Shown in pieces: positions 27,929-64,000 of a stretch of 64,000 nt of DNA. The position numbers and the translations under genes are program-made. The stretch is from Artemia franciscana (Eukaryota; Arthropoda; Branchiopoda; Anostraca; Artemiidae). The notes below the pieces were generated by a model. It had not been told where the DNA came from, made no database searches, and was given only the letters and a program-made list of their open reading frames with translations. The DNA is taken from assembly GCF_032884065.1 (NCBI RefSeq), contig NW_027063379.1, positions 1,489,869 to 1,553,868 of the forward strand, read 5' to 3'. The number at the start of each line of letters is the position of its first letter. Position 1 is the stretch's first letter.

Positions 27929-27981
27929 GTTATAGTTATGCTTATTACCAAATCAAGTAATTTATCGACCGAATTTTCTTG

Positions 27982-29439: not shown

Positions 29440-29442
<3 letters not shown>
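28866..29442 (-). mobile_element. LINE-d 3' fragment, copy B
   Basis: Same element and endpoints as 8,719-9,290. The C-terminal frame (LKERRDKIYLIFAKS...SFIPFILEHLN) is still open. The upstream end runs straight into the TA microsatellite at 29,442, because the first half of the flanking dimeric repeat is missing here. Confidence 0.7.

Positions 29443-29524
<82 letters not shown>
29442..29524. repeat. TA microsatellite (copy B)
   Basis: About 83 bp of pure TA, the shortest of the three equivalents. Protein frames made of alternating Tyr and Ile across it are artefacts. Confidence 0.95.
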
Positions 29525-29525
<1 letters not shown>

Positions 29526-29602
29526 CGGTATTAGACCCCAAACTGCAATAGTTGACTTAAGACAAGTCCACCCTAGCTCTAACTGTAACTCTGTTAACAT
29601 AA

Positions 29603-30308: not shown

Positions 30309-30599
30309 ATTGGGATTTTATCACCACTTTAATCTCAGCTAGGTATATAATCAATCAGCTAGGTAAATAATCAAAGTTAAAATATTTAATATGATACAAA
30401 GCTAATGAAAAATAATAATACTAAAATTAAAATTGATTAAAAATAAAATCAGTACAAGTTAAAATCATAAAGATTAAAGTTATCCTTATTCTCTGGGCTG
30501 CATGTAGTTTCCTTTTCCTGTTTTGCTTTGCCCATCTTTTACCTAGTCGAATTGGGATTTGATGAGAACTGTAATCTCAGCTAGGTGATTGAAGTAGAA

Positions 30600-31808: not shown

Positions 31809-31895
31809 AACTTTCTTAGTTTATTCAAACTATCTGATCCATCTTCGTTCTGTGGTGTGTGAAACCATCTTCGTTCTTTGGGTAATTACGATAAA

Positions 31896-31992
31896 CTATC
31901 CTAGAATCAACTCTAATAAGTCTCTGATCGGCGAGGCATCTCCCGAGAGCCTGGACAATGGCCTCACAGCATTCTGCCCAACAAACTCCGCA
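31896..31992 (-). other. Candidate short terminal exon of unknown gene (copy B)
   Basis: Counterpart of 12,487-12,583, also 97 nt from the ctttgcag acceptor to the TAG. The frame holding VRPLSRLSGDASPI is open here too. Function unknown; may be chance. Confidence 0.2.
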
Positions 31993-32156
31993 CTGCAAAG
32001 AAAAGAAATATTTAACAATAATTTCTAAATAATAATCCCGTCCTAGATTTGAAACTGCCGTTTTTGAAAAAAGAAAAAATTCGGTACTTGTATCATTTAG
32101 CCCCGACCTAACATTCATCATGTAAGTAGAACGTGTTTCTCCGACGCTTAGTCAAT

Positions 32157-33400
32157 TATTATTATTAATAGAGAGAAGTTTATTAATATTAAATAGAAGA
32201 CAATACAAAATACAATTAAAAATCAAATTACAATACACATAATTCCCCTCGAAAGGCTCCATGGCCAGGGATATAAGGGGGATAAAAAAAATATTATACA
32301 AGCAATAAATTCAATATAGGTAGTCACATTTAGCAGTTTACAGGCAATATATTTATGGGGGATACAATATAAGCAACAACTAGAAGGAAAAAAAAACAGA
32401 GAACATACCTGAGGCCTGGGAGCCAAGTGCAGAGAGGAAAACCACACACCATTAACAAAACACAGAGGCCATCAACTCCTCAGAGAAAAAAAAATAAATC
32501 TATTTGATTCTTTATTAAGTGATCCTTAAAAATCCTTTTAAAAGTCCCAAACGAGTGACATTTCTGCACTGAAGAAGGTAGTAAATTCCAGACCTGTTGA
32601 CAAGCAATGTGGGGATTGGAATCTGACGGAATAATAGGGGTAGACGGAATGTGGATATTATTTGAAGAACGAAGACTATATGGAGCTGAATCAGAAATAA
32701 ACATAGGAGTTTTCCGAAGAGATTTTGGAAGATTGCCGTGAACTTGATCAAAGACAAAATTAGCAAAAGAAATAATGTAAATAGACCGTAGACTTAAGAG
32801 CTGTGTTGGCACTATAACCTTAGCTCGCTTGAGAGATTCAGGAAAAATACCTTTCTCGAAAGACAGATTGACGAGCTTAGTCAGTGGTGACAGGAAAGCA
32901 GGCAGAATGGCACGGATAACCCTTGTAGGAATTTTTTTCTGGTCCTGAAGAGGATTATCCTTTAAGAGCATTCACAATACTAGCTACCTCAAATTCAGAA
33001 ACAGAATTCAAGACCATCGACTTCAAACATGAGGGTCCAAGAAAGGCTCTGAATTCGCAACGAGAAGTTGCAGAGCTTGCAGAGGAAGCAGTTATCTTTC
33101 CTATATTAGCAAAATAAAAGGTAAGCTCTAGCTGAACATCTACATCTCCTTGGACGGTTTTACCATCGATTTTCAACATTGATGGAACTTAAGGCAGAGG
33201 GGGAGTAGGTCTAAGAACTGAATTAATTAAATACCATGTCTTCCTTACATCCTTCCCACATTCTGAAAATTTCTTATGATAATACTGAGACTTTGCCTTC
33301 CGACACAGAGAATTAATTATATTCCTATAGGCCTTGTATCGTTCGTGATGAGCTAAAGATGGTGAAGCCTTGTAAAGTTTCCACAAATAATTTTTCCTTT
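32157..33400 (-). mobile_element. LINE-c, 3' half (copy B)
   Basis: Minus strand. It keeps the endonuclease-RT linker missing in copy A (KASPSLAHHERYKAYRNIIN and SECGKDVRKTWYLINSVLR, 33,190-33,386), then LELTFYFANIG, the RT start and the same deletion to the thumb. It is cut off at 33,400 by a rearrangement, so endonuclease and ORF1 are absent. Confidence 0.75.
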
Positions 33401-37254: not shown

Positions 37255-37266
37255 CTTTTATTTTAG

Positions 37267-37343
<77 letters not shown>

Positions 37344-37344
37344 T
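37267..37344. repeat. CT microsatellite (copy C)
   Basis: Interrupted TC run upstream of the phosphatase exon; it doubles as pyrimidine-rich intron sequence. Length differs from A and B. Confidence 0.95.
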
Positions 37345-37397
37345 GTTATAGTTATACATATTACCAAATCAACTAATTTATCGACCGAATTTTCAAG

Positions 37398-37701
37398 GTA
37401 CATAATTACACAATCATAGTGGCGGAAGACGACAGCAAAGAATCTCTATTTTTGAATCTTCCAAAATGGCGCGATGTTCAAAGTTTTAGCATTTGGCCTC
37501 CGTATCAAGTAACAGAGCCGTTTCCTGCATTCGAGAGAAGTTCAATTGAGAACTTCACAGTTGGATCTGAAGTTTGTCAAGGAGTAACGGGGTATTGCAA
37601 TGGTCCGCTGAAACCCGGCACCGCCTATAGAATGAAAATTCGAGCTTTTACAACAAGAACGAAGTTTACAGACACTGGTTACAGTATCCCCATTAGAACA
37701 G
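37398..37701 (+). CDS. Receptor-type tyrosine phosphatase, R3/Ptp10D-like: last extracellular FNIII exon
   Basis: An acceptor (ccgaattttcaag) is followed by an open frame VHNYTIIVAEDDSKE, then LPKWRDVQSFSIWPPYQVTE, then YCNGPLKPGTAYRMKIRAFT, TKFTDTGYSIPIRT, and a consensus donor ACAG/GTGAGT after one base of the next codon. From memory of the family, fly Ptp10D/Ptp4E and vertebrate R3 receptors carry an FNIII-like segment with this CNGPLKPGT..RAFT pattern just before the membrane. The phase-1 donor joins exactly to the exon at 43,680. An N-glycosylation site (NFT) is visible. In a cell this is extracellular, membrane-proximal sequence. Other exons are outside or lost in the gap. Confidence 0.85.
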
Positions 37702-38100
37702 GTGAGTTTTACCATTATGATTAAATAAGTTCTAAGATCACTTTGGCAATACACATAATGAGGGGACAAAACGTAGTAATAAAATACTGCTTAATAAATA
37801 TAGTACGACCAACACTGCAATGCAGCTTAAAAACTGAAAACACAAAAAAAATTGCAGATCATCCATGGGTTAAAGTTTTTATTTGATTTACATTTGGTTT
37901 TTTGATTATTTTCCTTTCTCGTATTAGGCTATAATTTAGTATAATTTAGTGTCGTCAGCATTCAATAGAATAAAAAAAAGACTAACCGTTTGAAGTACCC
38001 AAGATAAAAAAAAGTACATTTTTTAGGTTTTTTTTCCTTTACAAATTGAATTGAAGTATTATTCAAGAATATATTTCTAATTATTTGCTTGAACCAAAAA

Positions 38101-38682
38101 GTAATAAGATAAGATAATATGTATTTTCAAAAGCCTATCACAAGCTCTATAGAGCGGAATTCGCTTTATATGTCCGTAAAAGCTAAGAAAAAAATTCAAA
38201 TCAGTACATTAAGTCAAACAATTAAAATTAAAAAAAAATTTAAAAGGCAAAATCATCAAAGATAAAGGGCAAATCAGTAAACATGACAATTGAATTACAA
38301 AAAACATTACAGTAAATCAAAAATAAAAACGGCAATAGAGGAAAAGGGGGATTTGGCAAGTACATAATCACAAATTATTATTAAGGTGTTCAAGAATAAA
38401 GGGGATAAAACTTTTACGAAACCTCTGTGTAACAGCATGGATCTTTGAGAGTAAGTTATTATTGCTGAGGAGGCTGACCGGGGGAGTCGGAGTCCAATGG
38501 GATTGTGAAAATCAGGGAGTAAGTCCTCAGTATGGGGATTGGAAATGACTGATTTATCGAAAATCAGGTAAATTTTGTCCCTCCTTTCTTTTAAAGTGGT
38601 AATGCGTGCAGCTTTAAGGAGGAAGGAGTATGGAATTTTGCCTTCTTTGTAAATGATCCTGTAAATGATTCTGATAAGTCAT
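38101..38682 (-). mobile_element. LINE-d 3' fragment, copy C
   Basis: Same 5'-truncated LINE 3' end as in A and B. A deletion just upstream (near 37,950) removes about 200 bp present in A (8,370-8,570). Confidence 0.65.
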
Positions 38683-38769
38683 TGTGTCATATCCTAGTCA
38701 TATCCTACTTGGGTTTAGATCTTGTGTTGTATCTTATACAATGTTTTCTTCAGGAATTGTATTTACATG

Positions 38770-39110
<341 letters not shown>

Positions 39111-39734
39111 TGTTATGGTCTGAACGTCAATAGTTCTCTCCTTTCTATGTAAGGCAAATTGTATTTGAATTATAAACATAACTTCATTGAAATCAATGCA
39201 ATCGTTAAAAATAAAAAACTCGTAAAAAAGTAATTCCGAAAATTATCGAGAAGCTCAAATTATCCTTTTCAAATACTCAGACCTTTTCAAATATCCTTTT
39301 CAAAAATCGTAAAAAGGTAATTCCGAAGATTATCACGAAACTAAAATTATCCTTTTCCTCATATACTCGGAGATAATCAGAGACACCATTTGTCAACATT
39401 TCCGAATGTTGTTAATGAGATTAATTATGCCCAGGGTGTTTTTTCACTGTTGAAAAAAGTTTGGAAGAATAGGAAGGTAAGTCTGCGAACCAAAATTAGA
39501 CTATTAGAAAATACAATATGAAGCAGTGTAAAGAGTGAGACTTTGAATAGATTGGGATGTGTGAGGGGAGCATGCGTAGCTATGTTGGATTCAGGCAGCA
39601 TGGTGCTGCAGTGATTTGTTAGTAGTAGTAGTAGTAGTAGTAGTAGTAGAGATAGCTGGAACTCCTTGTCTCCTATGAATTACGAAAAGTCATCTATAGT
39701 TGAAAAAAAGTAAATTCAATTTAAAACAATCAAA

Positions 39735-40202
39735 ATGTAAATATTTAATATTATACAAAGTTAATGAAAAACAATAATATTAAAATTAAAATTGATTAAA
39801 AATAAAATCAGTATAAGTTAAAATCATAATGATTAAAATTATCCTTATTCTCTGGCGTCCATCTAGCTTCCTTTTCCTTTTCTGCTCTGTCTCTCTTTTA
39901 CCTAGTCGAATTGGGATTTTATCACCACTTTAATCTCAGCTAGGTATATAATCAATCAGCTAGGTAAATAATCAAAGTTAAAATATTTAATATGATACAA
40001 AGCTAATGAAAAATAATAATACTAAAATTAAAATTGATTAAAAATAAAATCAGTATAAGTTAAAATCATAATGATTAAAATCATCCTTATTCTCTGGGCT
40101 GCATGTAGTTTCCTTTTCCTGTTTTGCTTTGCCCATCTTTTACCTAGTCGAATTGGATTTGATGAGAACTGTAATCTCAGCTAGGTGATTGAAGTAGAAA
40201 CA
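39735..40202. repeat. Two-unit direct repeat of about 242 bp (copy C)
   Basis: Same pair as 10,265-10,738; it forms the right end of copy C. Confidence 0.8.
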
Positions 40203-46317: not shown

Positions 46318-46897
46318 AATAAAAAAAAACAAGTTTTTTCAACTGAAAGTAAGGAGCAACATTAAAACTTAAAACGAACAGAAATTACTTCGTATATGAA
46401 AGGGGCTGCTTCCTCATTAACGCCCCGCTCTTTACGCTAAAGTTTGACTCTTTCTCTCAACTCTTCTTTTTAAAACAGTAAAAAACTTTAGCGTAAAGAG
46501 CGGGGCGTTGATGAGGAAGCAGCCCCTTTCATATACGAAGTAATTTCTGTTCGTTTTAAGTTTTAATGTCGCTCCATACTTTCAGTTGAAAAAACTTGTT
46601 TTTTAAATTTAATTTCTGAACGTTTTTGAATCAATGCATGTTTTGATTTTAGCTCTTTTTACGAATCTTTTTATTAGTAAAAGATATACGTAACTTGTAA
46701 ATTAGCTTACGTAAAGAATTTTTTATTCTCATGTTTTTATTACACATATGAGAGGGTTCGCCCCCTCGTCAATACCTCTCTCTTTACACTAAATCTTAAG
46801 TTTTGTCCCAATTCATTAAGAATTTCCCCTGAATCACAAAAGCCGTGAATAAATAGTTGACATTACTAAAAATACTTTAGCGTAATGAGCGAGGGAT
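46318..46897. repeat. Composite palindromic repeat, copy 2 (opposite orientation)
   Basis: 46,318-46,610 is the same palindrome as 42,297-42,580, but its loop reads 'tctttctctcaactcttctt', the reverse complement of copy 1, so the element is flipped. 46,610-46,897 matches the outer part of copy 1 in reverse. It stops where the PIF/Harbinger 5' end begins. Confidence 0.8.
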
Positions 46898-47030
46898 TAT
46901 GCCTCGTTTACACGGAGAGGAAAACTTGACGAGAATCCTGTCTCGGAGACAGGATTTATGTTTACACACAGAGGGAAAAGTGGGAAAAGATTCTTGTCCT
47001 TTTGGCAGAAAATTTAAAAATTTTTTAAGC
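46895..47030 (+). other. Probable left end of a PIF/Harbinger element
   Basis: TTA (46,895-46,897 region) is followed by TGCCTCGTTTACACGG, and a related subterminal motif (TTTACACACAGAGGGAAAA) comes 50 bp later. A 10-bp perfect palindrome (AATCCTGTCT...AGACAGGATT) sits at 46,934-46,956. TWA target sites and short TIRs with subterminal repeats are usual for PIF/Harbinger. No matching right end was found, so the boundary is an inference from the junction with the palindromic repeat. Confidence 0.4.
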
Positions 47031-50000
47031 ATGGATGAAACCAACAGGAATATTATGATAGCAGCCACATCATCATTATTGATTGCTGCTGCTTTTAAAA
47101 GCACCGAAGAAAAAAAAGAGACAGAGAAGAAAGAGGAGATTCTGGGTCAGGCCATCTTTTCAGGTAAAGTTAGGATTTTGCAGTCATTTGACCATCTCAC
47201 CTACACTGCAGGCAAGCTACAGGACTGCTATAGCCAGGTTACAGCTCCTGTTGCAGGCAAGGCCAGCAAACTTGTCTTATAATTATTGGTTGGGATTTTC
47301 AGGCGTAGATTTCAAAAATAAGAATTTGTAGGCTACGAATAAGCTTTTATAAAATAAGAATTATAAGCTGACAAATAGAATTCTAGCCACGCAAAAGTAA
47401 GCTTTGATTTTGTTTTTTTGTATTAGGGCTATTTGGATAAATGTTGGGTTATATCCTGCAATTTGATTCACATAGGCCTTACAACAGCAAGTCAAGAGTT
47501 TTAATTTTTGTCATGAACCTTTACACTGAGGCTTCAAGACTTGTATTGATGCTTGGAAATCTTTGTTTCATCCTTTTGATGCTCTAGGTTTGATCTTAGC
47601 TTGGTAATTTGGGGCCAGAGATAAAACCTTGATGAAGCAAGACCCTAATGGTCACAAAATATTGTTAATCCAATTACTATTTTTACTAGATGCTTCAAGA
47701 TGTGTTCTTCATCAGAACTCTTTACATTTCAGCCTTACCCTATAGGGCAATGGATTATTTTTCAGGTCAAACTCTAGTTTGGCTACTTTTTGCTACCTTG
47801 GAAATGGGTTAGGTCAGGAAAATGGAACTTTCAGTAATGACTCCAGGGCAAAAAATATGTAAAAATCTAGTTTAGCTACTTTTCACTATCTTGGAAAGGG
47901 AATAGGTTAGAATAATAGAACTCAGTAATTAATCCAGGGCCAAAAACATATTCTGGGAAGGTACTGCCAAGCTTCTATGTTAACCCTTTTCTGATTTCTA
48001 AGTCTTAGAAAATTGCTTACTCAACAGGTCTATACCTAATCTATTGAAATTTTGACAAAACAAGTTTTACCTTAATTTTATATTATCAGTTTCTTTATAC
48101 TGGCTTTAGGTCTTAAAATGCAATTCCTTTTATTTGAGTAGCATTTTCAGCCATATCAATGGTTTTTTTTTTTAATTCAGGAAGTGTATTTGCATATCTT
48201 TAAAACCTTATAAAGTGGGATTGAGGAAAGCTATGAAACTGAAACCAATTTCTTTGTATTTCATGTAAGCAGACCTTCGCAGGACATACTTTTAGCCTTT
48301 AGACCCATCCCTGAAAGTTTTTTCTAATCTAACCCCCTGGTGCTCTTTTACGCATTGTATAAATTGTGAAGAAATGCCTGGCCTCTTATTTAACAGAATT
48401 GGCTAAAAGTCTTAGAAGTATCTTATATCAAAATACATCTGATACAGTTTAATTTTTTTTAGAGATGACAAAGAACAGCATTAAAGCTGAGTATTTGCTT
48501 TGCAAGACATGTGTCCCTTCTGTTGTAAAGCATTTTAGATAGATCCTAACCATGGGCGTATTGCTGTTGCAAATGGTTTTGCTTAATTGAGTGTTTGGAA
48601 AACAAATAGCAAATGTAAATTTGTTTTTTTATTATTATTTTAAGACAAGAATATCTCAAAGCTAAGCATTCACCATGCTAGTTTGCATCTTAAGTAAATG
48701 CAATCCCTGCTGGAGCTTTGTAAAATATAGTGTGTATAGAAGATTAGTGAAAATGGCTGTAAATCCATCTTGGCTTTTTTTCAATATTTTCTTTTTTGAA
48801 ATAGTTGTTTTACTCTGGTCATAATGGTGTTCCTGGCTAAGTGGAAAGCACTCCCAGTTATAAATCCTTTGTCCATGGGGTACAGGTTTGATTCCTGGTA
48901 TTGCCAGTTTATTCGTTTTGAATGGGGGTCAGTGATGTTACTCAGTAATCTCAGACAGATTTAAACCAGCTCTAAATGGGCAAATGGAGAAATATGGGAA
49001 AGATAAGCAGGGAGGGTGTGCAAAAGCACAGGATTTATGGCCCCCAGCCCTTCATTGCAACTCTTGGCCAAAGGGTCACAAAGGGGAAATTAGCACTGCC
49101 AGTTTAGACCTTGACATGTCAGTGCTGCCATACTTACTTACTTGCATATTGGTGTTGAGTTTGCACACATTTTATCTCATTGATATCCAAAATCATTTAG
49201 ACAATCAGCTAGCAGTCTCAAAGCACAATTAATTTTGAGTAGTTTTTCAGGCCTAGCTGACTTTCCCTTTATAGCAAATGTTTATTGTTGTGTATAATGT
49301 AGATATTTTAAAATAATTGATCATTAAGAAGTCCCTTTTAGTTTTATCAAGTTTTTTGGGTAATAAATGAGTGTTGTCGCTTTTATCTCTTTAGAAACTG
49401 TCAAATCTCATTGCTCTCTAGTTTCTCAAGGCTCTCTAGTTTGAATTGAGGGTACTTGGTTGATAGTTTTTGTGTTTCCCATTTTCCCAACATAATTTTT
49501 GCATTGTGTTACTGCGTGTCCAGCTGGCAATCTCGCCAGCCTTTTTTAATGGTTAGTCTGGCCAATAGCTGATTTTATTTTTGTGATCTTAGTAGTGACA
49601 ACCAGCTTTGTCATATTAACCATCAGTGTAGGCAATGCAGTAATGTTGCCTCACAAAAAGATGGTATTAGGCTATACATTAATGTTTTTTGTTGTTTTTT
49701 AGATGCGAGAGAAGCATGGCATGTATGAGGCATTAACAAAAGAGATGGAAGCTTCCGACGATGAGCTCTTCTTTCAGACTTACAGAATGTCAAAAGAGCA
49801 GATGGACTTTATTGCGTCATGTGTCAGTTCACTAATAGAGAAAAATGACACTGTTATGAGGCCTGCTATTGTTGCCAAGTGTAGACTGGCAATGACTCTC
49901 AGGTAACAATTTCTGACTTTGACAAAGTTTTATCAATAATAAAAATTTTCAGAGCTATTTCAAGTGTGTTTGCAGCTATTATAGGTGTAAACACCTAAGT

Positions 50001-51448
50001 TTGATTATGATTCTGGTTCTTAGATGATCTCCTGTAAGCGTGCTTAGTATTGCCACTTTGTTAATATTTGTACCGCCATGTCTCCCATTCTGTAACGTTT
50101 GAGGGTTAAAAAAAAATTATAGTTTGTAAAAAAAACTCAAATTAGATGGCTAGCAAGTTCTTGTCTAATAAACCTTACTTACTACTTACTTAACTTCCTC
50201 GAGCTTGGGTGTATTTAATAATTACACTTTTGTGTAGCTTGTTCATAGCAGATTCCTCATTTATTTGGATAAGCCTATATTTTGTAAAAATTGACATTAT
50301 TTCTCACTGGTTGTCAGTACATTCTGCAGGTTTGGAACGTTTTCAGTTGAGGAAGTTAGGCTTTTCATATAGAATTTCCTTGATACAAGGTTTTTGAAAG
50401 CTGAAATGCTGCAGCAAATGTTACTTTAATCATAGCTTTCAACTACCATTTCGTAGTAGCCTAGGCCTGCTCCACTCTAGAGAATTAAGTTCTGGGTCTA
50501 ATTTTCTTTTTCTTTTTTAGATTCTTGGCTAGTGGAGATTCAATGTTCAGCTTTCCAATAGCCTTCAGAGTCTCGAGAGCTGCACTTAGTGGCATTATTA
50601 TGGAGACTTGTCAGGCATTATGGACTGTCCTTCAGCCTCTTTACATGAAGCCTCCAACTGAAGAAGATCTCAAGCTGGTTTCAAGGGAGTTCAATGATCT
50701 GTGGCAGTTTCCAAACTGCATAGGGGCAGTTGATGGAAAGCATTGTAGGATTCATAAGCCCCCCAATTCTGGCTCTGATTACCACAACTTTCACGACTTT
50801 GAAAGCATAGTGCTTATGGCTGTCGTCGATGCGCGATACCGCTTCTTATACATAGACGTTGGTGCAAAAGGTAAAGAAAACGACAGCACCGTTTTCAGAA
50901 GGTTCAGCTTTGGAAAGGCCCTGGAAGTGAACAGGCTTCCAGTACCAGGTGATAAAGAGTTGCCGAATACCTCCTGCCCTTTGCCGCACATCTTTATTGG
51001 CGACGAGGCATTCCCGTTGAAGACGAATTTCTTGAAACCATTTTCACGATATGGTGACCTAACCACAGACAAAAAAATCTTCAATTACAGACTGTCTAGA
51101 GCCCGTCGTGTCGTGGAAAACACTTTTGGAATCATCGCCTCTCGATTTCGGGTGCTTAAAAGTACCATGATGGGCAAACTCGAGACCATCGATCACATTG
51201 TGAAGGCCGTATGCGTTCTTCATAATTTCCTAATGGTGACGAATGCTCAGAATGGAAACAGTTATTTCACACCTGTCCTGGTTGACCGTGAAGCAAATGG
51301 ACAGATAATTCCAGGTTCGTGGCGGCGACAGAGCATACCTGTATTGCCAAGTGGTAACATTTCTGGAAACTTTTCAGGCAGAGATGCATTGAAAATTCGT
51401 GAGGCTTTTAAAGACTATTTTTGTGGAGTTGGTAGAGTGCCATGGTAA
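47031..51448 (+). CDS. PIF/Harbinger (HARBI1/ALP1-like) nuclease, three exons, last exon copy 1
   Basis: Exon 1 is 47,031-47,163 (CAG/GTAAAG), exon 2 is 49,703-49,902 (AG/GTAACA) and exon 3 is 50,521-51,448. Exon 1 starts MDETNRN, then a basic tract ending FWVRPSFQ, the family's usual N-terminus. An A-run near 47,115 puts the two halves in different frames. Exon 2 has MREKHGMYEALTKEM and the helical RMSKEQMDFI region. Exon 3 holds the DDE_Tnp_4 domain: AVDGKHCRIHKP, VVDARYRFLYIDVGAKG, FIGDEAFPLK, and NYRLSRARRVVENTFG with the Glu. About 420 residues, normal for the family. It stops at VPW-TAA, ten codons before the stop used by copy 2. Transposase or domesticated nuclease. Confidence 0.85.
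47770..49342 (+). repeat. R1 repeat plus tRNA-derived SINE-like unit in nuclease intron 1
   Basis: 47,991-49,245 is the left arm of a 1.25-kb inverted repeat (right arm 59,099-60,351). It joins an R1 unit to a tRNA-like head at 48,826-48,905 with a perfect A box (TGGCTAAGTGG, 48,834) and a near-perfect B box (GGTTTGATTCC, 48,885). The 82-residue frame at 48,984-49,232 also appears in the inverted copy, but it is inside the repeat and has no recognisable domain. Confidence 0.7.
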
Positions 51449-51610
51449 GACGAGGCTATTCTCCGTGGAAATTTCTGATTATTTTTCTTTAGTGGATGAA
51501 TCGCTTATTCATGTTTTAGTGTATGTTTGTGCCAATTTTTTAAGATTTACAATTATTTGTCTTGGTTAAAGTCTCAGGCCCACCTTTGGCATCCTGCAAA
51601 TTTAAAATAA

Positions 51611-51763
51611 TGCCCGGGCCCCTCTACGGACACACCTATCGCAATTCTGTTTTTAGATGTTTTTAAGGTGGGTTTTTACACGTTGAGAGGAGCGTCCTAA
51701 ACGTCTTAAAAACTTCTTAAATACCGAATTACGAACAGGTGTGTCCGTAGTGGGGCCCGGGCA
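51611..51763. mobile_element. Harbinger-type MITE (unit 1)
   Basis: 27-bp terminal inverted repeats start TGCCCGGGCCCC and end GGGGCCCGGGCA (one mismatch in this copy). They are flanked on both sides by TAA, the TWA target site typical of PIF/Harbinger. 153 bp, no coding capacity. Confidence 0.75.
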
Positions 51764-52235
51764 TAAAAGACGTTGGAACAGAGCTTTTGGGCCCCCCTCC
51801 CTGCAATTTAGGCCTAACTTAGCAATTGGGACACGGCATGTATAGCTCATTGTTTTCTGACGATATTTCTCATGTAGGTTTGCTTCATTATATCTATTAA
51901 GTGGGCCCCATATCACCTGGAGTTCAAAGCTATGTATGCCTCAGTGGGGCACCCCTAATTCTGGACTAGGAGCTCGAATCCTGAGATGTATTACAAACTC
52001 GTTATACTGAGAGAAAAGTAAAAAAAAACTAAGCTAAAAATGGAATTATTTATAATAGCAGACTAACTTAAATCTTCTCATCTGACGTTCAAAGTCACAT
52101 GAACATTACAAATGCACTCGAACCAAAGGAAGTTATAATGTCAACATAGCTTTCAAGTACCATTTTGTAGTAGCCTAGGCCTGCTCCACTCTAGAGAATT
52201 AAGTTCTGGGTCTAATTTTCTTCTTTTTTTTTTAG

Positions 52236-53193
52236 ATTCTTGGCTAGTGGAGATTCAATGTTCAGCTTATCAATAGCCTTCAGAGTCTCGAGAGCTGCAC
52301 TTAGTGGCATTATTATGGAGACTTGTCAGGCATTATGGACTGTCCTTCAGCCTCTTTACATGAAGCCTCCAACTGAAGAAGATCTCAAGCTGGTTTCAAG
52401 GGAGTTCAATGATCTGTGGCAGTTTCCAAACTGCATAGGGGCAGTTGATGGAAAGCATTGTAGGATTCATAAGCCCCCCAATTCTGGCTCTGATTACCAC
52501 AACTTTCACGACTTTGAAAGCATAGTGCTTATGGCTGTCGTCGATGCGCGATACCGCTTCTTATACATAGACGTTGGTGCAAAAGGTAAAGAAAACGACA
52601 GTACCGTTTTCAAAAGGTCCAGCTTTGGAAAGGCCCTGGAAGTGAACAGGCTTCCAGTACCAGGTGATAAAGAGTTGCCGAATACCTCCTGCCCTTTGCC
52701 GCACGTCTTTATTGGCAACGAGGCATTCCCGTTGAAGACGAATTTCTTGAAACCATTTTCACGATATGGTGACCTAACCACAGACAAAAAAATCTTCAAT
52801 TACAGACTGTCTAGAGCCCGTCGTGTCGTGGAAAACACTTTTGGAATCCTCGCCTCTCGATTTCGGGTGCTTAAAAGTACCATGATGGGCAAACTCGAGA
52901 CCATCGATCACATTGTGAAGGCCGTGTGCGTTCTTCATAATTTCCTAATGGTGACGAATGCTCAGAATGGAAACAGTTATTTCACACCTGTCTTGGTTGA
53001 CCGTGAAGCAAATGAACAGATAATTCCAGGTTCGTGGCGGCGACAGAGCATACCTGTATTGCCAAGTGGTAACATTTCTGGAAACTTTTCAGGCAGAGAT
53101 GCATTGAAAATTCGTGAGGCTTTTAAAGACTATTTTTGTGGAGTTGGTAGAGTGCCATGGCAAGACGAGGCTATTCTACGTGGAAATTTCTGA
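52236..53193 (+). CDS. PIF/Harbinger nuclease last exon, copy 2 (variant active site, longer tail)
   Basis: The tttag acceptor is followed by an exon in the same phase as copy 1, so it could be spliced to exon 2. The first Asp block (AVDGKH) and the Glu block (VVENTFG) are intact, but the FIGDEAFPL block reads FIGNEAFPL (GAC to AAC). By analogy with the GDSGYP block of HARBI1 this Asp is a likely catalytic acid, so the copy is probably nuclease-dead. The TAA used by copies 1 and 3 is CAA here, adding QDEAILRGNF. ALP1-like proteins often end in a VPWQ region, so this C-terminus may be ancestral. Confidence 0.85.
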
Positions 53194-53325
53194 TTATTTT
53201 TCTTTAGTGGATGAATCGCTTATTCATGTTTTAGTGTATGTTTGTGCCAATTTTTTAAGATTTACAATTATTTGTCCTGGTTAAAGTCTCAGGCCCACCT
53301 TTGGCATCCTGCAAATTTAAAATAA

Positions 53326-53478
53326 TGCCCGGGCCCCACTACGGACACACCTATCGCAATTCTGTTTTTAGATGTTTTTAAGGTGGGTTTTTACACGTTG
53401 AGAGGAGCGTCCTAAACGTCTTAAAAACTTCTTAAATACCGAATTACGAACAGGTGTGTCCGTAGTGGGGCCCGGGCA
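53326..53478. mobile_element. Harbinger-type MITE (unit 2)
   Basis: Same 153-bp element with fully complementary terminal repeats and TAA on both sides. It occupies the same place in each unit, so it inserted once, before the triplication. Confidence 0.75.
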
Positions 53479-53950
53479 TAAAAGACGTTGGAACAGAGCT
53501 TTTGGGCCCCCCTCCCTGCAATTTAGGCCTAACTTAGCAATTGGGACACGGCATGTATAGCTCATTGTTTTCTGACGATATTTCTCAGGTAGGTTTGCTT
53601 CATTATATCTATTAAGTGGGCCCCATATCACCTGGAGTTCAAAGCTATGTATGCCTCAGTGGGGCACCCCTAACTCTGGACTAGGAGCTCGAATCCTGAG
53701 ATGTATTACAAAATCGTTATACTGAGAGAAAAGTAAAAAAAAAAACTAAACTAAAAATGGAATTATTTATAATAGCAGACTAACTTAAATCTTCTCATCT
53801 GACGTTCAAAGTCACATGAACATTACAAATGCACTCGAACTAAAGGAAGTTATAATGTCAACATAGCTTTCAAGTACCATTTTGTAGTAGCCTAGGCCTG
53901 CTCCACTCTAGAGAATTAAGTTCTGGGTCTAATTTTCTTTTTTTTTTTAG

Positions 53951-54878
53951 ATTCTTGGCTAGTGGAGATTCAATGTTCAGCTTATCAATAGCCTTCAGAG
54001 TCTCGAGAGCTGCACTTAGTGGCATTATTATGGAGACTTGTCAGGCATTATGGACTGTCCTTCAGCCTCTTTACATGAAGCCTCCAACTGAAGAAGATCT
54101 CAAGCTGGTTTCAAGGGAGTTCAATGATCTGTGGCAGTTTCCAAACTGCATAGGGGCAGTTGATGGAAAGCATTGTAGGATTCATAAGCCCCCCAATTCT
54201 GGCTCTGATTACCACAACTTTCACGACTTTGAAAGCATAGTGCTTATGGCTGTCGTCGATGCGCGATACCGCTTCTTATACATAGACGTTGGTGCAAAAG
54301 GTAAAGAAAACGACAGTACCGTTTTCAAAAGGTCCAGCTTTGGAAAGGCCCTGGAAGTGAACAGGCTTCCAGTACCAGGTGATAAAGAGTTGCCGAATAC
54401 CTCCTGCCCTTTGCCGCACGTCTTTATTGGCGACGAGGCATTCCCGTTGAAGACGAATTTCTTGAAACCATTTTCACGATATGGTGACCTAACCACAGAC
54501 AAAAAAATCTTCAATTACAGACTGTCTAGAGCCCGTCGTGTCGTGGAAAACACTTTTGGAATCCTCGCCTCTCGATTTCGGGTGCTTAAAAGTACCATGA
54601 TGGGCAAACTCGAGGCCATCGATCACATTGTGAAGGCCGTGTGCGTTCTTCATAATTTCCTAATGGTGACGAATGCTCAGAATGGAAACAGTTATTTCAC
54701 ACCTGTCTTGGTTGACCGTGAAGCAAATGGACAGATAATTCCAGGTTCGTGGCGGCGACAGAGCATACCTGTATTGCCAAGTGGTAACATTTCTGGAAAC
54801 TTTTCAGGCAGAGATGCATTGAAAATTCGTGAGGCTTTTAAAGACTATTTTTGTGGAGTTGGTAGAGTGCCATGGTAA
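53951..54878 (+). CDS. PIF/Harbinger nuclease last exon, copy 3
   Basis: Same length and acceptor phase as copy 1. The DDE blocks (AVDGKH, FIGDEAFPL, VVENTFG) are intact. It shares with copy 2 the changes FSLSIAF, KRSSFG, PHVFIG and FGILAS, but shares with copy 1 the catalytic-type Asp and the early TAA after VPW. One private change is LEAIDHI. It could serve as an alternative terminal exon; no separate exon 1-2 copy exists for it in the window. Confidence 0.85.
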
Positions 54879-55040
54879 GACGAGGCTATTCTACGTGGAA
54901 ATTTCTGATTATTTTTCTTTAGTGGATGAATCGCTTATTCATGTTTTAGTGTATGTTTGTGCCAATTTTTTAAGATTTACAATTATTTGTCTTGGTTAAA
55001 GTCTCAGGCCCACCTTTGGCATCCTGCAAATTTAAAATAA

Positions 55041-55193
55041 TGTCCGGGCCCCACTACGGACACACCTATCGCAATTCTGTTTTTAGATGTTTTTAAGGTG
55101 GGTTTTTACACGTTGAGAGGAGCGTCCTAAACGTCTTAAAAACTTTTTAAATACCGAATTACGAACAGGTGTGTCCGTAGTGGGGCCCGGGCA
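55041..55193. mobile_element. Harbinger-type MITE (unit 3)
   Basis: Third copy, 153 bp, TAA on both sides; the left terminal repeat has a C-to-T change (TGTCCGGG). Confidence 0.75.
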
Positions 55194-55646
55194 TAAAAGA
55201 CGTTGGAACAGAGCTTTTGGGCCCCCCTCCCTGCAATTTAGGACTAACTTAGCAATTGGGACACGGCATGTATAGCTCATTGTTTTCTGACGATATTTCT
55301 CATGTAGGTTTGCTTCATTATATCTATTAAGTGGGCCCCATATCACCTGGAGTTCAAAGCTATGTATGCCTCAGTGGGGCACCCCTAACTCTAGACTAGG
55401 AGCTCAAATCCTGAGATGTATTACAAACTCGTTATACTGAGAGAAAAGTAAAAAAAAGACTAAACTAAAAATGGAATTATTTATAATAGCAGACTAACTT
55501 AAATCTTCTCATCTGACGTTCAAAGTCACATGAACATTACAAATGCACTCGAACTAAAGGAAGTTATAATGTCAACTAGAATCTTGAAAAAGCCAAATTC
55601 AAAATCTACCACTTCTCTAACCAAACACTTAATATTAGCAGGTCTT

Positions 55647-57972
55647 TTAATGTTTTTCAAGCTTTTCCATCTCTTCTAAAACGATTGAAGCAAACTTTGC
55701 TTTGATTCTTGCCTGCACAAGAGGTGTGAAGCTGTCTAACTGGGCAGCCAATGACTGGCAGTATCCAAAATTCGGCGACTGGTTTTGGTTCATTGGGGTC
55801 TCAACGATACTACGCAGGGCTTTTGCAGCCTCCTCAATAAGGGCATCTGCACTTGACTGTCCTTTAACTGGTTCTTTTTTGTCTTCTTGACTGGGGGCTC
55901 TCGTTCTGGTAAGGCTTTATTTCTAGTCTGCTCGGAACATCCGCCCGAGTCATCTGCCCCTTTGCCTCCTTGTACAAGAACATTGGGATTGGCATTGCCT
56001 TTGGAAACTCTCGGTGAGGCTTCACTTCTCTGCTGCGGCAAGTGCAAGGCCTCTGTCACTTTAAGGCCCTGTACTTGAATAGGGCTGACAAAGTCCTTCG
56101 AAGGTCTAGGAACGGGTGAGGCTTCACTTCTCTTCTGCTACAAGTTCTTGTGCAAGACCTCTATCGCTTTAATGCCTTGTACTTGAATAGGACTGGCAAA
56201 GCCCTTTGATGGCCCAGGTGAGGCTTCCCTTTTTGCTGTGGCAAGTTCTCTCTCCCTTTGAAACCCTCCACGTGAACAAAGCCTTTTGAAGTTGTGCAGT
56301 AAACTTCTTGCAGGTCATCATCGCTTTCTGGCTCCCTTTGAGCTCTTTTGAGGCCGTTCAAAGTTTTGAGCACTGGCAGATTCAATTTCTTGCCCTTTCC
56401 CTTGTCTGACAGTTTTACTCTTTCCACAGAGTCTCTTTCTTGTATGCTATAGACTGGAAGGAAGGCATCTCTTGATTCTTCTTCACTGTACTCACTGCTT
56501 TCCCCAGTTGCCGCCACAACCACAACTTCCTTGCTCATATCAGGAAGATTTCCGCTGGTCCTGAAAAAAGGGAACCTATTAATCACAAGTCTCCCCCCCC
56601 CAAACATCAGTGACGGGATGACTTCGTTAAGTTTTGTCCGACTGCTAGCACCACAACTCTCGAAAGGGTTGAAATATTTTGTTCAAACTTTGAGAGGATA
56701 CAAAAACAAGACCAAAGGTTACAATGGGATCCCAAAAATTCAATATTTGATCCAGACTCGACCTTACTCTTGACCCAAAGAATCCTCACACCAAGTTTCA
56801 TGAAAATATCTCATTCCCTTCGAGAGTTATCGTGCTTACAGACGGACGTACAGACGGACAACTTTTGCGATGTCAAAGGTATCCCTCCACTTACGTTTTG
56901 GGATCCCAAAAAGTCATATTTCACGATGCATGTAGCTGACGGAACACAGCTGACGTATCCGGTTTACAGCGTCAAATATGATTCATAATCAGCTAGGTCT
57001 GAAGGAATATTAAAAAAATAAATCCAAGCTGACGTGACAGTCGATTTACGGATAAGAAAAATATGAAGACGTGAACTTCCTATTCTCACCGGACAGGTAG
57101 TTTGCCCAGAAGCAAATCCCTGAAAAAGATTGTTTGCCCCGAATCCAGGCGAAGCCCAGGAAAATATTGTTTTATAAAAAAAAAATAATCAAAGAATACT
57201 ATTTGTTCTCGCCTCAGAGGGATAGTCCAACTGGAACCATGACAAAACAGGATGTGTATGGATGAACCAAAAAACTGCAAGGCACGACTTTCTGTATTAA
57301 CACGACTTCCTCTTGCTTATTCTGCCTTTTATAATTTAGTTTCCATATGGAATTACAAGCTTACTTCTTTTATACTTTATACTTCTTACTTCTTTTATTT
57401 GTAAGTTTTCCCACATTTTAACCACGGCTCGTTCAGTTTTTCAAATGTTTTGGGCCCAGCCACCGCGTCGGAGAGCAGGAAAGCTGGACATAGTCGACAA
57501 GCGCTAACAAGAAAATCGCTATTTTCTCGTGGACAGTAATGGTGTTTCCGAAACAAATTTCTACCCATTTCATATGTTAAAGATCATTTCTAGGCAAGAG
57601 TTGTGCTTTAAAAAAAGTCAAGAAAATCCACACAGAAGACAGAATAATTGTAGTCTGTATGATGTAATGCTGTAGTCTGTTTTTCTTAAAACAGTCGTTT
57701 TCTCAAGAAAAATAGTCAATAAAAATGACAACCCAGTCGGTAAATACCTTGACCCCCCAGACATTTTGGCTAGTATGGTAACACCTCTGCTCATGATACT
57801 TACTTCCTTGGGTTGTAGTATTTGATCAGGAACATCAAGTATCTGAACAACGGCCAATTAATATTCTCATCCTCTTCTCCATCTCCTCCACTGAGCCTTC
57901 CTTCTTTTCTCGCAGAGTAGCGCTTCATGAATTCTCCGCGAACATATGACCATGATTTTCTACACCAGTCCT
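55647..57972 (-). CDS. MADF-BESS DNA-binding protein, partial and damaged, convergent with the nuclease
   Basis: Minus strand. One exon, 57,972-57,804, follows a ctttcag acceptor and has the second half of a MADF domain: DWCRKSWSYVRGEFMKRY, then INWPLFRYLMFLIKYYNPR, and a GTAAGT donor in phase 2. The next exon, 56,560-55,647, opens in matching phase (TSGNLPDMSKEVVV). It has an acidic stretch, two diverged repeats of a REASPGPSKGFASPIQVQG type, and a C-terminal BESS-like helix (SLAAQLDSFTPLVQARIKAK). Two frame changes at A-runs (near 56,240 and 55,880) and one TAG (near 56,135) interrupt it. PIF elements and their domesticated derivatives (fly DPLG7/DPM7) pair a nuclease with a MADF protein. 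The first exon was not found. Confidence 0.7.
56630..57030 (+). repeat. Dispersed repeat with GACGGAC minisatellite, in the MADF gene intron
   Basis: 'accaagtttcatgaaaat', then 'gagttatcgtgcttacagac', then 'ggacgtacagacggac' near 56,840. This phrase pattern is common in invertebrate dispersed repeats (from memory). No gene. Confidence 0.5.
57031..57797. other. Intron sequence without a recognised feature
   Basis: Lies between the two MADF-BESS exons. I see no coding domain or repeat shared with other parts of the window. Confidence 0.5.
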
Positions 57973-58289
57973 CTGAAAGTAAGAATTTCACTATTAAGAA
58001 CCAGTAACATATTTCTTAAGTAAACTCAGGAATGTATATTTGAACAGTTTCTTAAATGTAAACAGTGCAGTTTCGGACTAAATGGTAGAATGAATATCCA
58101 AAATACAAATTCAGGTGTTTTCAGAGGCTCTTAATTACCAATCTAACTTCTTGTTAGTTTCATCACAACAAATGCTTGAAAATGCCAAAGTTTAAAGTCA
58201 ACAAACATTCAAATAAGCATACCTCTACTGCAGACTGACGGCAACACCCAAATATAGATGTTAACTAATCAGATATCACTAGACAGTCA

Positions 58290-58580
58290 ACCACAAACCC
58301 CTGATTTTTGGATACCCTATGCCAAACGCTAGATATATCTAACATTTGGCATAGCCTATGCCTAATGCTGGATACCTGTTGGTACTCTAACCTTGACCTA
58401 TCTTACTGCAGGTGAATTCTGATTGGTTGATTTCTGAGCTTCAGTAAAATCATCAATATTTTATTGAGAACAGGTATCTAACATTTGGCATAGGGTATCG
58501 AGCGTTAGGCATAGGCTATGCCAAATGCTAGATATATCCAGCGTTTGGCATAGGGTATCCAAAAATCAGGGGTTTGTGGT
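58290..58580. mobile_element. Palindromic MITE-like element with arms of about 90 bp
   Basis: The left arm, 'accacaaacccctgattttt', continues through 'ggataccctatgccaaacg', and the right arm returns the same sequence inverted. Inside, 'ttggcata' motifs recur about ten times on both strands. Relatives without the left arm are at about 61,667-61,860 and 62,340-62,475. Foldback element without coding capacity. Confidence 0.75.
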
Positions 58581-58743
58581 AGATTGTCACTAGTTGCATT
58601 TTGCAGATACCATGTTATCTGTTATCATGCTAAATGAATCTGCAGTTAGTTCTTTCTGCGGTTGTCCTTCAAAAATGACAATTGCCAAAATTGCATTTTG
58701 AATTCATCCCAAAACATAAACTGATATTCAGTCACATCACTTA

Positions 58744-59098
58744 GGTCCAAACTTCTTTACGGCCAATCTAATAAAATCATCGGCTCTTTTGTTGGTAATG
58801 ATGAAAGTGAGATGACTTTCTCAGATACCATGGTCAGTTACCCCAGTTGGACAGTGGTACCTGAATATCAGATACCCTGACAACTGCAAAAACACATTTT
58901 GAACCCCAAATATTATTTCATTAAAATCAGGAATCTGTTGTAGAATTTGTTACAGAACAATTTGTAGAAGTGTCAATTATCAAGGAGGTCTTGATATCCA
59001 CCAAAATAGTTTTATTATTATCTTTCTATTTATTAGTATAATGTGGGGTTTATTAATATAATGTGTGTTCAATGCAGGGTAGAGCAGAAGAGTTGAAC
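58744..59098 (+). repeat. Repeat S, copy 1
   Basis: It begins 'ggtccaaacttctttacgg' and runs through 'ataccatggtcagttacccc' and 'tatcaaggaggtcttgatat'. It recurs directly at 61,120-61,480 and inverted at about 60,417-60,660. Confidence 0.8.
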
Positions 59099-60351
59099 AA
59101 ACTACTCAAAATTAATTGTGCTTTGAGACTGCTAGCTGATTGTCTAAATGATTTTGGAAATCAATGAGATAAAATGTGTGCAAACTCAACACCAATATGC
59201 AAGTAAGTAAGTATGGCAGAACTGACATGTCAAGGTCTAAACTGGCAGTGCTAATTTCCACTTTGTGACCCTTTGGCCAAGATTTGCAATGAAGGGCTGG
59301 GGGCCAGAAATCCTGTGCTTTTGCACACCCTCCCTGCTTATCTTTCCCATATTTCTCCATTTGCCCATTTAGAGCTGGTTTAAATCTGTCTGAGATTACT
59401 GAGTAACATCACTGACCCCCATTCAAAACAAATAAACTGACAATACCAGGAATCAAACCTGTACCCCATGGACAAAGGATTTATAACTGGGAGTGCTTTC
59501 CACTTAGCCAGGAACACCATTATGACCAGAGTAAAACAACTATTTCAAAAAAGAAAATATTGAAAAAAAGCCAAGATGGATTTACAGCCATTTTCACTAA
59601 TCTTCTATACACACTATATTTTACAAAGCTCCAGCAGGGATTGCATTTACTTAAGATGCAAACTAGCGTGGTGAATTTTTAGCTTTGAGATATTCTTGTC
59701 TTAAAATAATAATAAAAAAACAAATTTACATTTGCTATTTGTTTTCCAAACACTCAATTAAGCAAAACCATTTGCAACAGCAATACGCCCATGGTTAGGA
59801 TCTATCTAAAATGCTTTACAACAGAAGGGACACATGTCTTGCAAAGCAAATACTCAGATTTAATGCTGTTCTTTGTCATCTCTAAAAAAAATTAAACTGT
59901 ATCAGATGTATTTTGATATAAGATACTTCTAAGACTTTTAGCCAATTCTGTTAAATAAGAGGCCAGGCATTTCTTCACAATTTATACAATGCGTAAAAGA
60001 GCACCAGGGGGTTAGATTAGAAAAATCTTTCAGGGATGGGTCTAAAGGCTAAAAGTATGTCCTGAGAAGGTCTGCTTACATGAAATACAAAGAAACTGGT
60101 TTCAGTTTCACAGCTTTCCTCAATCCCACTTTATAAGGTTTTAAAGATATGCAAATACACTTCCTGAATTAAAAAAAAACCATTGATATGGCTGAAAATG
60201 CTACTCAAATAAAAGGAATTGCATTTTAAGAGCTAAAGCCAGTATAAAGAAACTGATAATATAAAATTAAGGTAAAACTTGTTTTGTCAAAAATTCAATA
60301 GATTAGGTATAGACCTGTTGAGTAAGCAATTTTCTAAGACTTAGAAATCAG
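59099..60351 (-). repeat. Right arm of the 1.25-kb inverted repeat
   Basis: Reverse complement of 47,991-49,245 almost throughout, including the tRNA-like head (about 59,451-59,520) and R1. The two arms are separated by 9.85 kb that contains nuclease exons 2-3 and all recognised MADF-BESS exons, but not nuclease exon 1. Confidence 0.9.
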
Positions 60352-60416
60352 ACAATAAAATCATTCCAAAATCATTTAGACAATCAGCTAGCAGTCTCAA
60401 AGCACATTATATTAAT

Positions 60417-61480
60417 AAACCCCACATTATACTAATAAATAAAAAGATAATAATAAAACTATTCTGGTGGATATCAAGACCTCCTTGATAATTGACACTT
60501 CTACAAATTGTTCTGTAATAAATTCTGCAAAATATGCAACAAATTCCTGATTTTAATGAAATAATGTTTGGGGTTCAAAATGTGTTTTTGCAGTTGTCAG
60601 GGTATCTGATATTCAGGTACCAAAGTCCAACTGGGGTAACTGACCATGGTATCTGAGAAAGGGACTTCTTAATGATAAATTATTTTAAAATATCTACATT
60701 ATACACAACAATAAACATTTGCTATAAAGGGAAAGTCAGCTAGGCCTGAAAAACTACTCAAAATTAATTGTGCTTTGAGACTGCTAGCTGATTGTTTAAA
60801 TGATTTTGGAAATCAATGAGATAAAATGTTTGCAAACTCAACACCAATATGCAAGTAAGTAAGTATGGCAGCACTGACATGTCAAGGTCTAAACTGGCAG
60901 TGCTAATATCCACTTTGTGACCCTTTGGCCAAGAGTTACAATGAAGGGCTGGGGGCCAGAAATCCTATGCTTTTGCACACCCTCCCTGCTTATCTTTCCC
61001 ATATTTCTCCATTTGCCCATTTAGAGCTGGTTTAAATCTGTCTGAGATTACTGAGTAACATCACTGACCCCCATTCAAAACAAATAAACTGGCAATACCA
61101 GGAATCAAACCTGCTGTAAGGTCCAAACTTCTTTACGGTCAATCTAATAAAATCATTGGCTCTTTTGTTGGTAATGATGAAAGTGAGATGAATTTCTCAG
61201 ATACCATGGTCAGTTACCCCAGTTGGACTGTGGTACCTGAATATCAGATACCCTGACAACTGCAAAAACACATTTTGAACCCCAAACATTATTTCATTAA
61301 AATCAGGAATTTGTTGCAGAATTTGTTACAGAACAATTTGTAGAAGTGTCAATTATCAAGGAGGTCTTGATATCCACCAGAATAGTTTTATTTTTATCTT
61401 TTTATTTATTAGTATAATGTGGGGTTTATTAATATAATGTGTGTTCAGTGCAGGGTAGACCAGAAGAGTAGCACTTGAAC
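60417..61480. repeat. Mosaic of repeat fragments
   Basis: 60,417-60,660 is repeat S inverted. 60,660-61,113 is the reverse complement of 48,888-49,342, ending at the SINE B box. 61,120-61,480 is repeat S in direct orientation. No gene. Confidence 0.8.
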
Positions 61481-61718
61481 AAACTACTCAAAATTAATTG
61501 TGCTTTGAGACTGCACTTGAACAAACTGTTCATTGTCGATAACTGTTGTCCTTGTTAACAGCTAATGAAAATTAATACTCATACATGAATCGGCTTCATT
61601 AATTGCATAATTATAGGAGGGGTATGCAACCTCGAACTTGGCCTAAAAAGATTATAAGGAAATTGGATACCCTATGCTAAACGTTGGATACTGTTCCCAA
61701 CAAAATATTAATGATTTT

Positions 61719-62940
61719 ACTGCAGCTCAGAAATCAACCAATCAGTACCTGTAGTGAGATAGGTCAGGGTTAGAGTACCAACAGGTATCCAGTGTTTGGC
61801 ATAGGGTGTCCAGCATTAGGCATAGGGGTATCCAAAAATCAGAGATTTGTGATTGGCTGTGGTACCTGGTGGTACCCCCATTAAAATCTGTTTAAAAGGT
61901 TAATTTCCATTTCAGATCCTAGTTCTAACTGACAATATGGAAACCCGCAACGACCTGGGACCTCTTTCGGAATGCACAAAGTTTCCTTGTAAGATCTTCA
62001 GGCCAAGTTTGAGGTCATATAAATTTGTGGTTGGATACCCCTCCAGTAGAACAATTCCTTTTAAGTAAATAACCTAAACCCCTACCCCAGCCAAAAGTGT
62101 ACACGAGGGGCCTCCAACCTTAATTTATATAACCTTGAACTTAGCCTTAAAATCTTACGAGCAAATTTCTGTGCAGTTGTAAAGAGGTCTTAGGTTATGA
62201 TCTTGCAGGTTTTGATCTTGACAGTTTAAAAGCTTTCCTTATGTCCTTTTTAGGGCCGAGTAAAGGGGCCATGTAAGTTCAAAATTGCATACTCCTCCTT
62301 ATAGTTTTTTCAAAACACTAACGGGTCACACTACTGCAGCTCAGAAATCAACCAATCAGTACCTGTAGTGAGATAGGTCAGGGTTAGAGTACCAACAGGT
62401 ATCCAGTGTTTGGCATAGGGTGTCCAGCATTAGGCATAGGGGTATCCAAAAATCAGAGATTTGTGATTGGCTGTGGTACCTGGTGGTACCCCCATTAAAA
62501 TCTGTTTAAAAGGTTAATTTCCATTTCAGATCCTAGTTCTAACTGACAATATGGAAACCCGCAACGACCTGGGACCTCTTTCGGAATGCACAAAGTTTCC
62601 TTGTAAGATCTTCAGGCCAAGTTTGAGGTCATATAAATTTGTGGTTGGATACCCCTCCAGTAGAACAATTCCTTTTAAGTAAATAACCTAAACCCCTACC
62701 CCAGCCAAAAGTGTACACGAGGGGCCTCCAACCTTAATTTATATAACCTTGAACTTAGCCTTAAAATCTTACGAGCAAATTTCTGTGCAGTTGTAAAGAG
62801 GTCTTAGGTTATGATCTTGCAGGTTTTGATCTTGACAGTTTAAAAGCTTTCCTTATGTCCTTTTTAGGGCAGAGTAAAGGGGCCATGTAAGTTCAAAATT
62901 GCATACTCCTCCTTATAGTTTTTTCAAAACACTAACGGGT
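61719..62940 (+). repeat. 614-bp tandem duplication
   Basis: 61,719-62,326 and 62,333-62,940 are nearly identical at an offset of 614 bp. I saw one difference (agggccgag versus agggcagag). Each contains a partial palindromic element and non-coding sequence. The second copy ends exactly where LINE-f coding sequence begins. Confidence 0.95.
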
Positions 62941-63198
62941 TACGAGTCTTTTAAAATATCGGAATACAAAGAATTGCCCAGACGGTGTCTTAGATGCCAA
63001 AGTATCCATCATTCGTTAGCTCACTGCCCATGTGCCCCGAATGAGATGAAGTGCTCTAAATGTTCTGGATGCCATTCCAATACTAAAGACAATCCTTGCT
63101 TAGAGGCTCCGAAATGTGCCAACTGCGGCGAAGCTCATGTTTCCTATAGTATAAATTGCCCAGTGATAAAACGCGCTCTGAACTCTGCTCCAAAATGA
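62941..63198 (+). mobile_element. LINE-f ORF1, C-terminal zinc-knuckle part
   Basis: The open frame begins at the junction with the 614-bp duplication (YESFKISEYKELPRRC). It carries Gag-like CCHC knuckles typical of Jockey/I-group ORF1: CLRCQSIHHSLAHC, CSKCSGCHSNTKDNPC, CANCGEAHVSYSINC. The ORF stops with TGA at 63,196-63,198. The 5' part of ORF1 is missing (5'-truncated). In the family this protein binds LINE RNA in the cytoplasmic RNP. Confidence 0.8.
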
Positions 63199-64000
63199 AC
63201 CAAGCCACTATTTTAAGTTTTGCTTCTCTTAATATTAACGGCACAAAAGACAAAGACTTGTTAATTAATGAATTATTAGTCCATGACATAGTGTTCTTGC
63301 AAGAACATCTTTTGACCAAATCGAACGTTTCTAGCCTGAAGCGATCTTCTGTCCACCATTTCTTTTCGCAAGAGGCCAAGCAAACTAGAGGCCGCCCTTC
63401 CGGTGGCCTAGCAATTTTTTTCCATTCCCCATCAAAGCCCTCTGTGATTCATTGTGATGATAACATCTTAGCGATTCAATGTGACAGTACCGCCTTTATA
63501 AACGTTTACTTACCTTGCGATCGACGTTCTATAGCATCGTTCACATCTTTCGCTAAATGTTGCTCCAGTTTAAAGTCTCTACTCGAAAGTCTACGTTTGA
63601 AAGACCTAAATTGGGTTTTAGCTGGTGACCTTAACTGTGACATTCTTGGTACCTCCGATAGATCAATCCTCTTGCTAGAATCACTTCCTAGCATATATCA
63701 CGTCGCAGTTAAGAGCCTCCCATTCACGTATATTCATAACAGAGGCTGTTCAAAATCGAACCTGGATCACGTGATCTCTTCCAGTTCCAGCTTAATATCA
63801 TCGATTGTCAGGGTGGACGAAGAGAAGATTGACGACGATCACCTTATTCTTAGCTGTAATTTGTCCTGTGAGCTATCTGGCAAAATACTTTCGGCTCAGC
63901 CGAAGTGGCATACGAAGTTGAATTGGGATCGTGCTAATGTCCCACTATACCTTGCTACGCTAACTGCTTTACTCTCGACCATAAAAGTGCCATATCACCT
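63195..64000 (+). mobile_element. LINE-f ORF2, endonuclease domain, continues past the window edge
   Basis: ORF2's ATG at 63,195 overlaps the ORF1 stop (ATGA), a standard arrangement for translation by reinitiation in LINEs. The frame is open for 268 codons to the window end. APE-type endonuclease motifs run in order: SLNING (Asn), LQEHL (Glu), INVYLP, VLAGDLNCD (Asp, Asn), LDHVIS and DDHLIL (Asp-His). All catalytic positions look intact, unlike every LINE-b copy. Codon use is less AT-rich than its neighbours. RT must lie to the right. Clade uncertain. Confidence 0.85.

Follow-up and report, generated by a model that had tools for sequence, protein, structure and literature searches.

A PIF/Harbinger transposon of Artemia franciscana carries the catalytic last exon of its predicted transposase three times in tandem, and our analysis implies that this array is very probably a neutral duplication, private to a single decaying copy of the transposon and never put to use. 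The copy lies in a stretch of 64,000 nucleotides (the window; C793:1489869-1553868 of the 1.27-Gb assembly) and was compared with related copies of the element, L039-L045. The array, its breakpoints, its restriction to one copy, the drift of its units and the lesions in its exons are all visible in the assembled sequence.

Three tandem units

Three head-to-tail units of ~1.7 kb each lie between 50431 and 55576, with their exons spaced exactly 1715 bp apart (Table 1). The units are 98-99% identical across 1.7 kb, which excludes chance, and each consists of the last ~90 bp of intron 2, an acceptor, exon 3 and then the space up to a convergent second gene. All three exons (3a, 3b and 3c) match PF13359 (DDE_Tnp_4) over the full profile with 105-107 bits (cut-off 24.8). 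Thus the tandem triplication of the last exon of a Harbinger nuclease, which an earlier sequence-only reading had proposed here together with the 1,715-bp spacing, is real in the assembly. That reading described the units as nearly identical; they are indeed similar, but differ pairwise at 24, 24 and 14 sites (1.4, 1.4 and 0.8%).

A single upstream set of exons 1 and 2 precedes the three last exons, each of which has, as had also been proposed, an open frame, its own T-rich tract and an AG acceptor whose phase is common to all three. The acceptors read TTAG followed by ATTCTTGG, their phase matches that of the exon-2 donor after 49902, so that any of the three exons could in principle be spliced to exon 2, and the frames run for 309 (3a), 319 (3b) and 309 (3c) codons to the stop. 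This picture is qualified by a broken frame in exon 1, which the earlier reading had not recorded, and by the loss of ten end residues from 3a and 3c through an early stop that is absent from L039, L040, L041 and L042. Six poly(A)-type hexamers were sought between the stop and the unit end: AATAAA and ATTAAA were found in no unit, and AGTAAA and CATAAA were the only ones present in each.

The array is found in one copy only

At the joints of the array a unit end is fused to a unit start with one C (1 bp) in common, as in end-joining or template switching. The junction pattern, searched with up to 2 mismatches, has 2 matches in the 1.27-Gb genome, both of them in the array, and 0 in the reversed control. 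An active subfamily spreading the array was also considered and rejected, as the junction was found at the window array only. By exact match, both breakpoints are unbroken in L039, L040 and L041, and the left one is so in L042 as well.

Searched against the genome, unit 1 yielded 37 matches from 22 candidates. They comprise the three units described here, single ones on C7, C17 and C13 (two places), a partial one on C30 and only the tail on C2, the remainder being short or distant (71-88% identity). Exon 3 is present in a single copy at all five other loci found with it; the array therefore occupies one of six loci, and the sharing among related copies expected of a terminal-exon array was seen at none of the other five. 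Outside the array, the 150 scored DDE_Tnp_4 hits (of 263 candidates) include no pair of full-length hits within 5 kb of each other; nine close pairs were halves of one domain and four pairs were 6.7-9.7 kb apart. Separately, at five loci of this genome (G000; C5:49880259-49880754, C17:35365399-35365894, C14:37109871-37110366, C15:21263815-21264308 and C16:11957047-11957549) DDE_Tnp_4 is interrupted by 62-66 bp near one and the same profile position, which might be a short intron of a different Harbinger family.

Age of the units and exchange between copies

The distance of the units to L039 and L041 is 0.9-1.7%, that to L040 is 1.1-2.0%, so that they are about as distant from each other as from L039 or L041. 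In the flanks of the array within the same copy we counted 25 private substitutions in 5191 columns (~0.48%; 0.47-0.49% in three regions, the copies serving as comparison varying from region to region). This rate excludes a fourth region, the first 369 bp of the element, with 4 private changes in 356 columns, whose inclusion would raise the expected count. At the flank rate a recent triplication predicts ~8 changes common to every unit, whereas 0 of 1707 columns show a substitution that every unit has and the L039-L041 majority lacks (P ~0.0003). A recent or homogenised triplication, as the sequence-only reading had suggested, is therefore rejected, and judged by these counts the array is about as old as the spread of the related copies.

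Two indels connect the units. A 76-78-bp deletion in the middle of an imperfect foldback is present in all three, where L039, L040 and L041 retain the bases and L042 has other sequence; a 5-bp deletion near 51928 is likewise present in all three and absent from L039-L042. Since both are common to the three units and occur in none of the compared copies, the units descend from one ancestral unit. The same indels speak against an assembly artefact, by which a single exon 3, or two haplotypes, would have been laid out three times. The array does stand, with its three units, in a single assembled contig of only 1.68 Mb, compared with 45-67 Mb for the contigs of L039-L045. However, each unit has its own substitutions (17 in unit 1, 5 in unit 2 and 7 in unit 3, counted as private to one unit against the L039-L041 majority), unlike a mechanical repeat of one assembled piece, and a junction of ends sharing one base is not created by overlap-based misassembly. 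We consider such an artefact very unlikely.

One could argue that the units came from different elements by ectopic recombination or gene conversion and not by duplication in place. Several observations do weigh against a neutral duplication followed only by drift. In unit 1, private changes are more numerous than the flank rate predicts (P ~0.002), and 18 of its substitutions are absent from L039-L041, compared with 5 each in units 2 and 3. The early stop, the sole substitution found in just two units against the L039-L041 majority, is common to 3a and 3c and not to 3b. Unit 3 has three variants, all inside 65 bp, in common with L040, a hint that elements have exchanged sequence. The unit-1 excess and the shared stop are not explained by a simple duplicate-and-drift history, and the mutual distances of the units, about equal to those from L039 or L041, would suit an ectopic origin as well. 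Nevertheless, a single founding duplication at this place is indicated by the two unit-only indels and by the identity of the two junctions; later conversion may have altered parts of it. Some exchange between copies is likely, and an ectopic origin of the units is as improbable to us as an artefact of assembly.

Exon lesions, selection and coding capacity

Five of eight more distant proteins tried from this genome were readable, and their acidic residues align with all three acidic positions of the exons, except that 3b has Asn where 3a, 3c and all five have Asp. We take the aligned residues to be the DDE catalytic triad, and the Asn of 3b would presumably stand at its second Asp. For the Ping transposase of rice, an Asp to Ala change in the DDE domain, which may concern a different Asp, lowered excision ~150-fold (PMC2836001). 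A search for relatives of exon 3c with a solved structure found none at E 1 or better.

The exons 3a, 3b and 3c show 11 nonsynonymous and 4 synonymous changes, to be compared with a neutral expectation of 2.99:1 (the shared stop is counted twice, and the numbers are small). Thus the exon changes look neutral at these small numbers: selection preserving each exon, as would be expected of a terminal-exon array, is not visible in the ratio, and no preserved set of alternative exons is apparent.

In the exon model predicted from the sequence, all three splice forms that begin at the exon-1 ATG stop at codon 53, since the frame of exon 1 does not continue into exon 2; an intact transposase frame, such as an autonomous element would have, is thus missing from the model. 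Further points have to be set against the view of a decaying, unused copy. The exon-1 lesion falls in an A homopolymer, which is a frequent site of assembly errors and measures 8 to 10 bases in seven copies; at this place the frame is likewise broken in four of the six others (L040, L041, L042 and L044) and kept in L043 and L045. Translation from the exon-2 ATG would yield 375, 385 and 375 aa with 3a, 3b and 3c, respectively, and in no unit has exon 3 lost its open frame or its acceptor. A divergence of 0.8-1.4% would, however, often leave frames open by chance, and the element probably makes full-length transposase no longer.

The kept acceptors, T-rich tracts, phase and frames, which are indeed expected of a terminal-exon array, raise the notion that splicing combines a single N-terminal part with either 3a, 3b or 3c to give nuclease variants, with 3a and 3c shortened and 3b catalytically dead and possibly inhibitory. 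In the region after the stops, with neither AATAAA nor ATTAAA, read-through past 3a would be conceivable. Moreover, arrays of this kind exist: Drosophila pip likewise has several homologous terminal exons in tandem, reported to be chosen one at a time (PMC9013439). The pip exons, however, belong to a host gene, whereas for the window array nothing shows expression or selection. Beyond the open frames and acceptors nothing was found in favour of working terminal exons: the array stands at one of six loci, the ratio of changes is neutral, the frame of exon 1 is broken, 3b has lost a presumed catalytic Asp, and 3a comes first with an acceptor as T-rich as those of 3b and 3c. Alternative terminal exons in use, raised as a possibility in the sequence-only reading, are therefore unsupported and highly improbable. 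Just as improbable is a scheme in which expression of the array starts at the exon-2 ATG and gives several nucleases by choice of the terminal exon, the D to N form of 3b inhibiting related Harbinger copies.

The host element and its surroundings

The array resides in a complete element whose two termini carry TGCCTCGTTTACAC.GAGAGG with one mismatch, the inverted repeats of a PIF/Harbinger transposon, and the window copy and L043 are each bordered by TTA at both ends, as in the 3-bp TTA/TAA duplication of this superfamily; the third mark is the DDE_Tnp_4 transposase, present as three full-profile matches. The left ends of six other copies show the identical start in three cases and the start TGCTGCG in the other three. 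The assembly size and the introns fit eukaryotic DNA. A search of four minus-strand frames with PF10545 matched one of them at 18.5 bits, below the cut-off of 22 (E 0.0026). Such a MADF-like exon on the opposite strand is expected of the second gene in two-gene elements (PMC9710019), so that, with this second gene presumed, the element is otherwise of the ordinary two-gene kind.

Table 1. Positions, in the window, of the element, its exons and its tandem units
Feature	Position	Strand	Remarks
PIF/Harbinger element	46900..64000 in the window, to ~66363 in all	+	~19.5 kb including nested repeats; right end outside the window
Left target-site duplication TTA	46897..46899	.	partner TTA at ~66364-66366, beyond the window end
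Left terminal inverted repeat TGCCTCGTTTACACGGAGAGG	46900..46920	+	inverted partner, one mismatch, ends at ~66363 (C793:1556231)
Predicted transposase exon 1	47031..47163	+	donor GTAAAG; loses the exon-2 frame at a run of A
Transposase exon 2	49703..49902	+	opens with ATG; donor GTAACA
Tandem unit 1	50431..52145	+	end of intron 2, exon 3a, 3' region; bounded junction to junction
Tandem unit 2	52146..53862	+	bounded junction to junction
Tandem unit 3	53863..55576	+	bounded junction to junction
Exon 3a, DDE_Tnp_4	50521..51448	+	TAA ten codons ahead of the end used in relatives
Exon 3b, DDE_Tnp_4	52236..53193	+	full length; D to N at the presumed second catalytic position
Exon 3c, DDE_Tnp_4	53951..54878	+	early TAA, same as 3a
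Imperfect foldback	51610..51764, also 53325-53479 and 55040-55194	.	3' region of each unit; central deletion common to all three
Exon of presumed convergent second gene	57803..58015	-	partial MADF/Myb-SANT match below curated cut-off

Within the element, 47987-49249 and 59094-60355 form a nested repeat pair in opposite orientation (98% identical), and the adjoining stretch 49250-49367 was the source of 32 of 40 scored matches in one genome search. At 62878-64000 the sequence is LINE-like, with Exo_endo_phos above the cut-off and a zinc knuckle below it; the window diverges from L042 and L043 at ~62934, where this sequence begins, and the right arm picks up again at ~65991, with ~1.2 kb of the arm of L043 absent in between. 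L043 together with L052 (C2:39005943-39014067) is a shorter relative with both ends and TTA duplications and without the exon-3 region, a deletion derivative.

The array-bearing copy has a second tandem duplication, 61718-62329 and 62332-62943 (612 bp twice, 99.7% identity), which L042 and L043 have only once. Large direct repeats (1-13729, 20895-33135 and 34279-40202) of ~88-98% identity, mostly 94-97%, occur over the first 40 kb of the window. On account of these two features the neighbourhood seems prone to duplication.

Known systems and a possible history

The window copy resembles two-gene PIF/Harbinger transposons (PMC9179366, PMC9710019) in its TTA duplication, inverted repeats, DDE_Tnp_4 domain and opposite-strand MADF-like stretch (below the cut-off here), and differs from them in its three last exons and in the larger size that results from nested repeats. 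Internal tandem repeats are also found in the PIF/Harbinger-like MtPH-A6-4 of Medicago truncatula, the proliferation of which was tied by the authors to abortive gap repair (PMC2213677). There, however, the repeat is a subterminal one of 60 bp, reported in 18 of 23 subfamily members, in contrast to the 1.7-kb coding unit in one copy described here. A triplicated Harbinger catalytic exon was not found in the literature searched by title and abstract opening, with most subscription journals outside the coverage.

For the neutral, private duplication, which we favour, the following history can be proposed. A PIF/Harbinger transposon would have inserted at a TTA site, and early in the private history of this copy an internal segment of 1.7 kb would have been duplicated head to tail. 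We infer that the duplication arose through a joining event at 1 bp of shared sequence, be it end-joining, template switching or faulty gap repair, and that two units became three by unequal exchange or by a second joining. The units would then have drifted without detectable selection, apparently without acquiring a function; if the copy is transcribed, exon 2 would most likely be joined to 3a, the nearest acceptor.

If the alternative exons were used after all, the array would be a set of active and inactive nucleases built by a transposon behind one promoter, and such a set would offer the transposon a means of regulating itself and the host a source of new genes. As a neutral duplication it may serve as a clear example of a segment internal to a transposon starting a tandem array via one-base joining, and this one-base start would be comparable to the early steps considered for transposon-derived satellites (PMC12628747).

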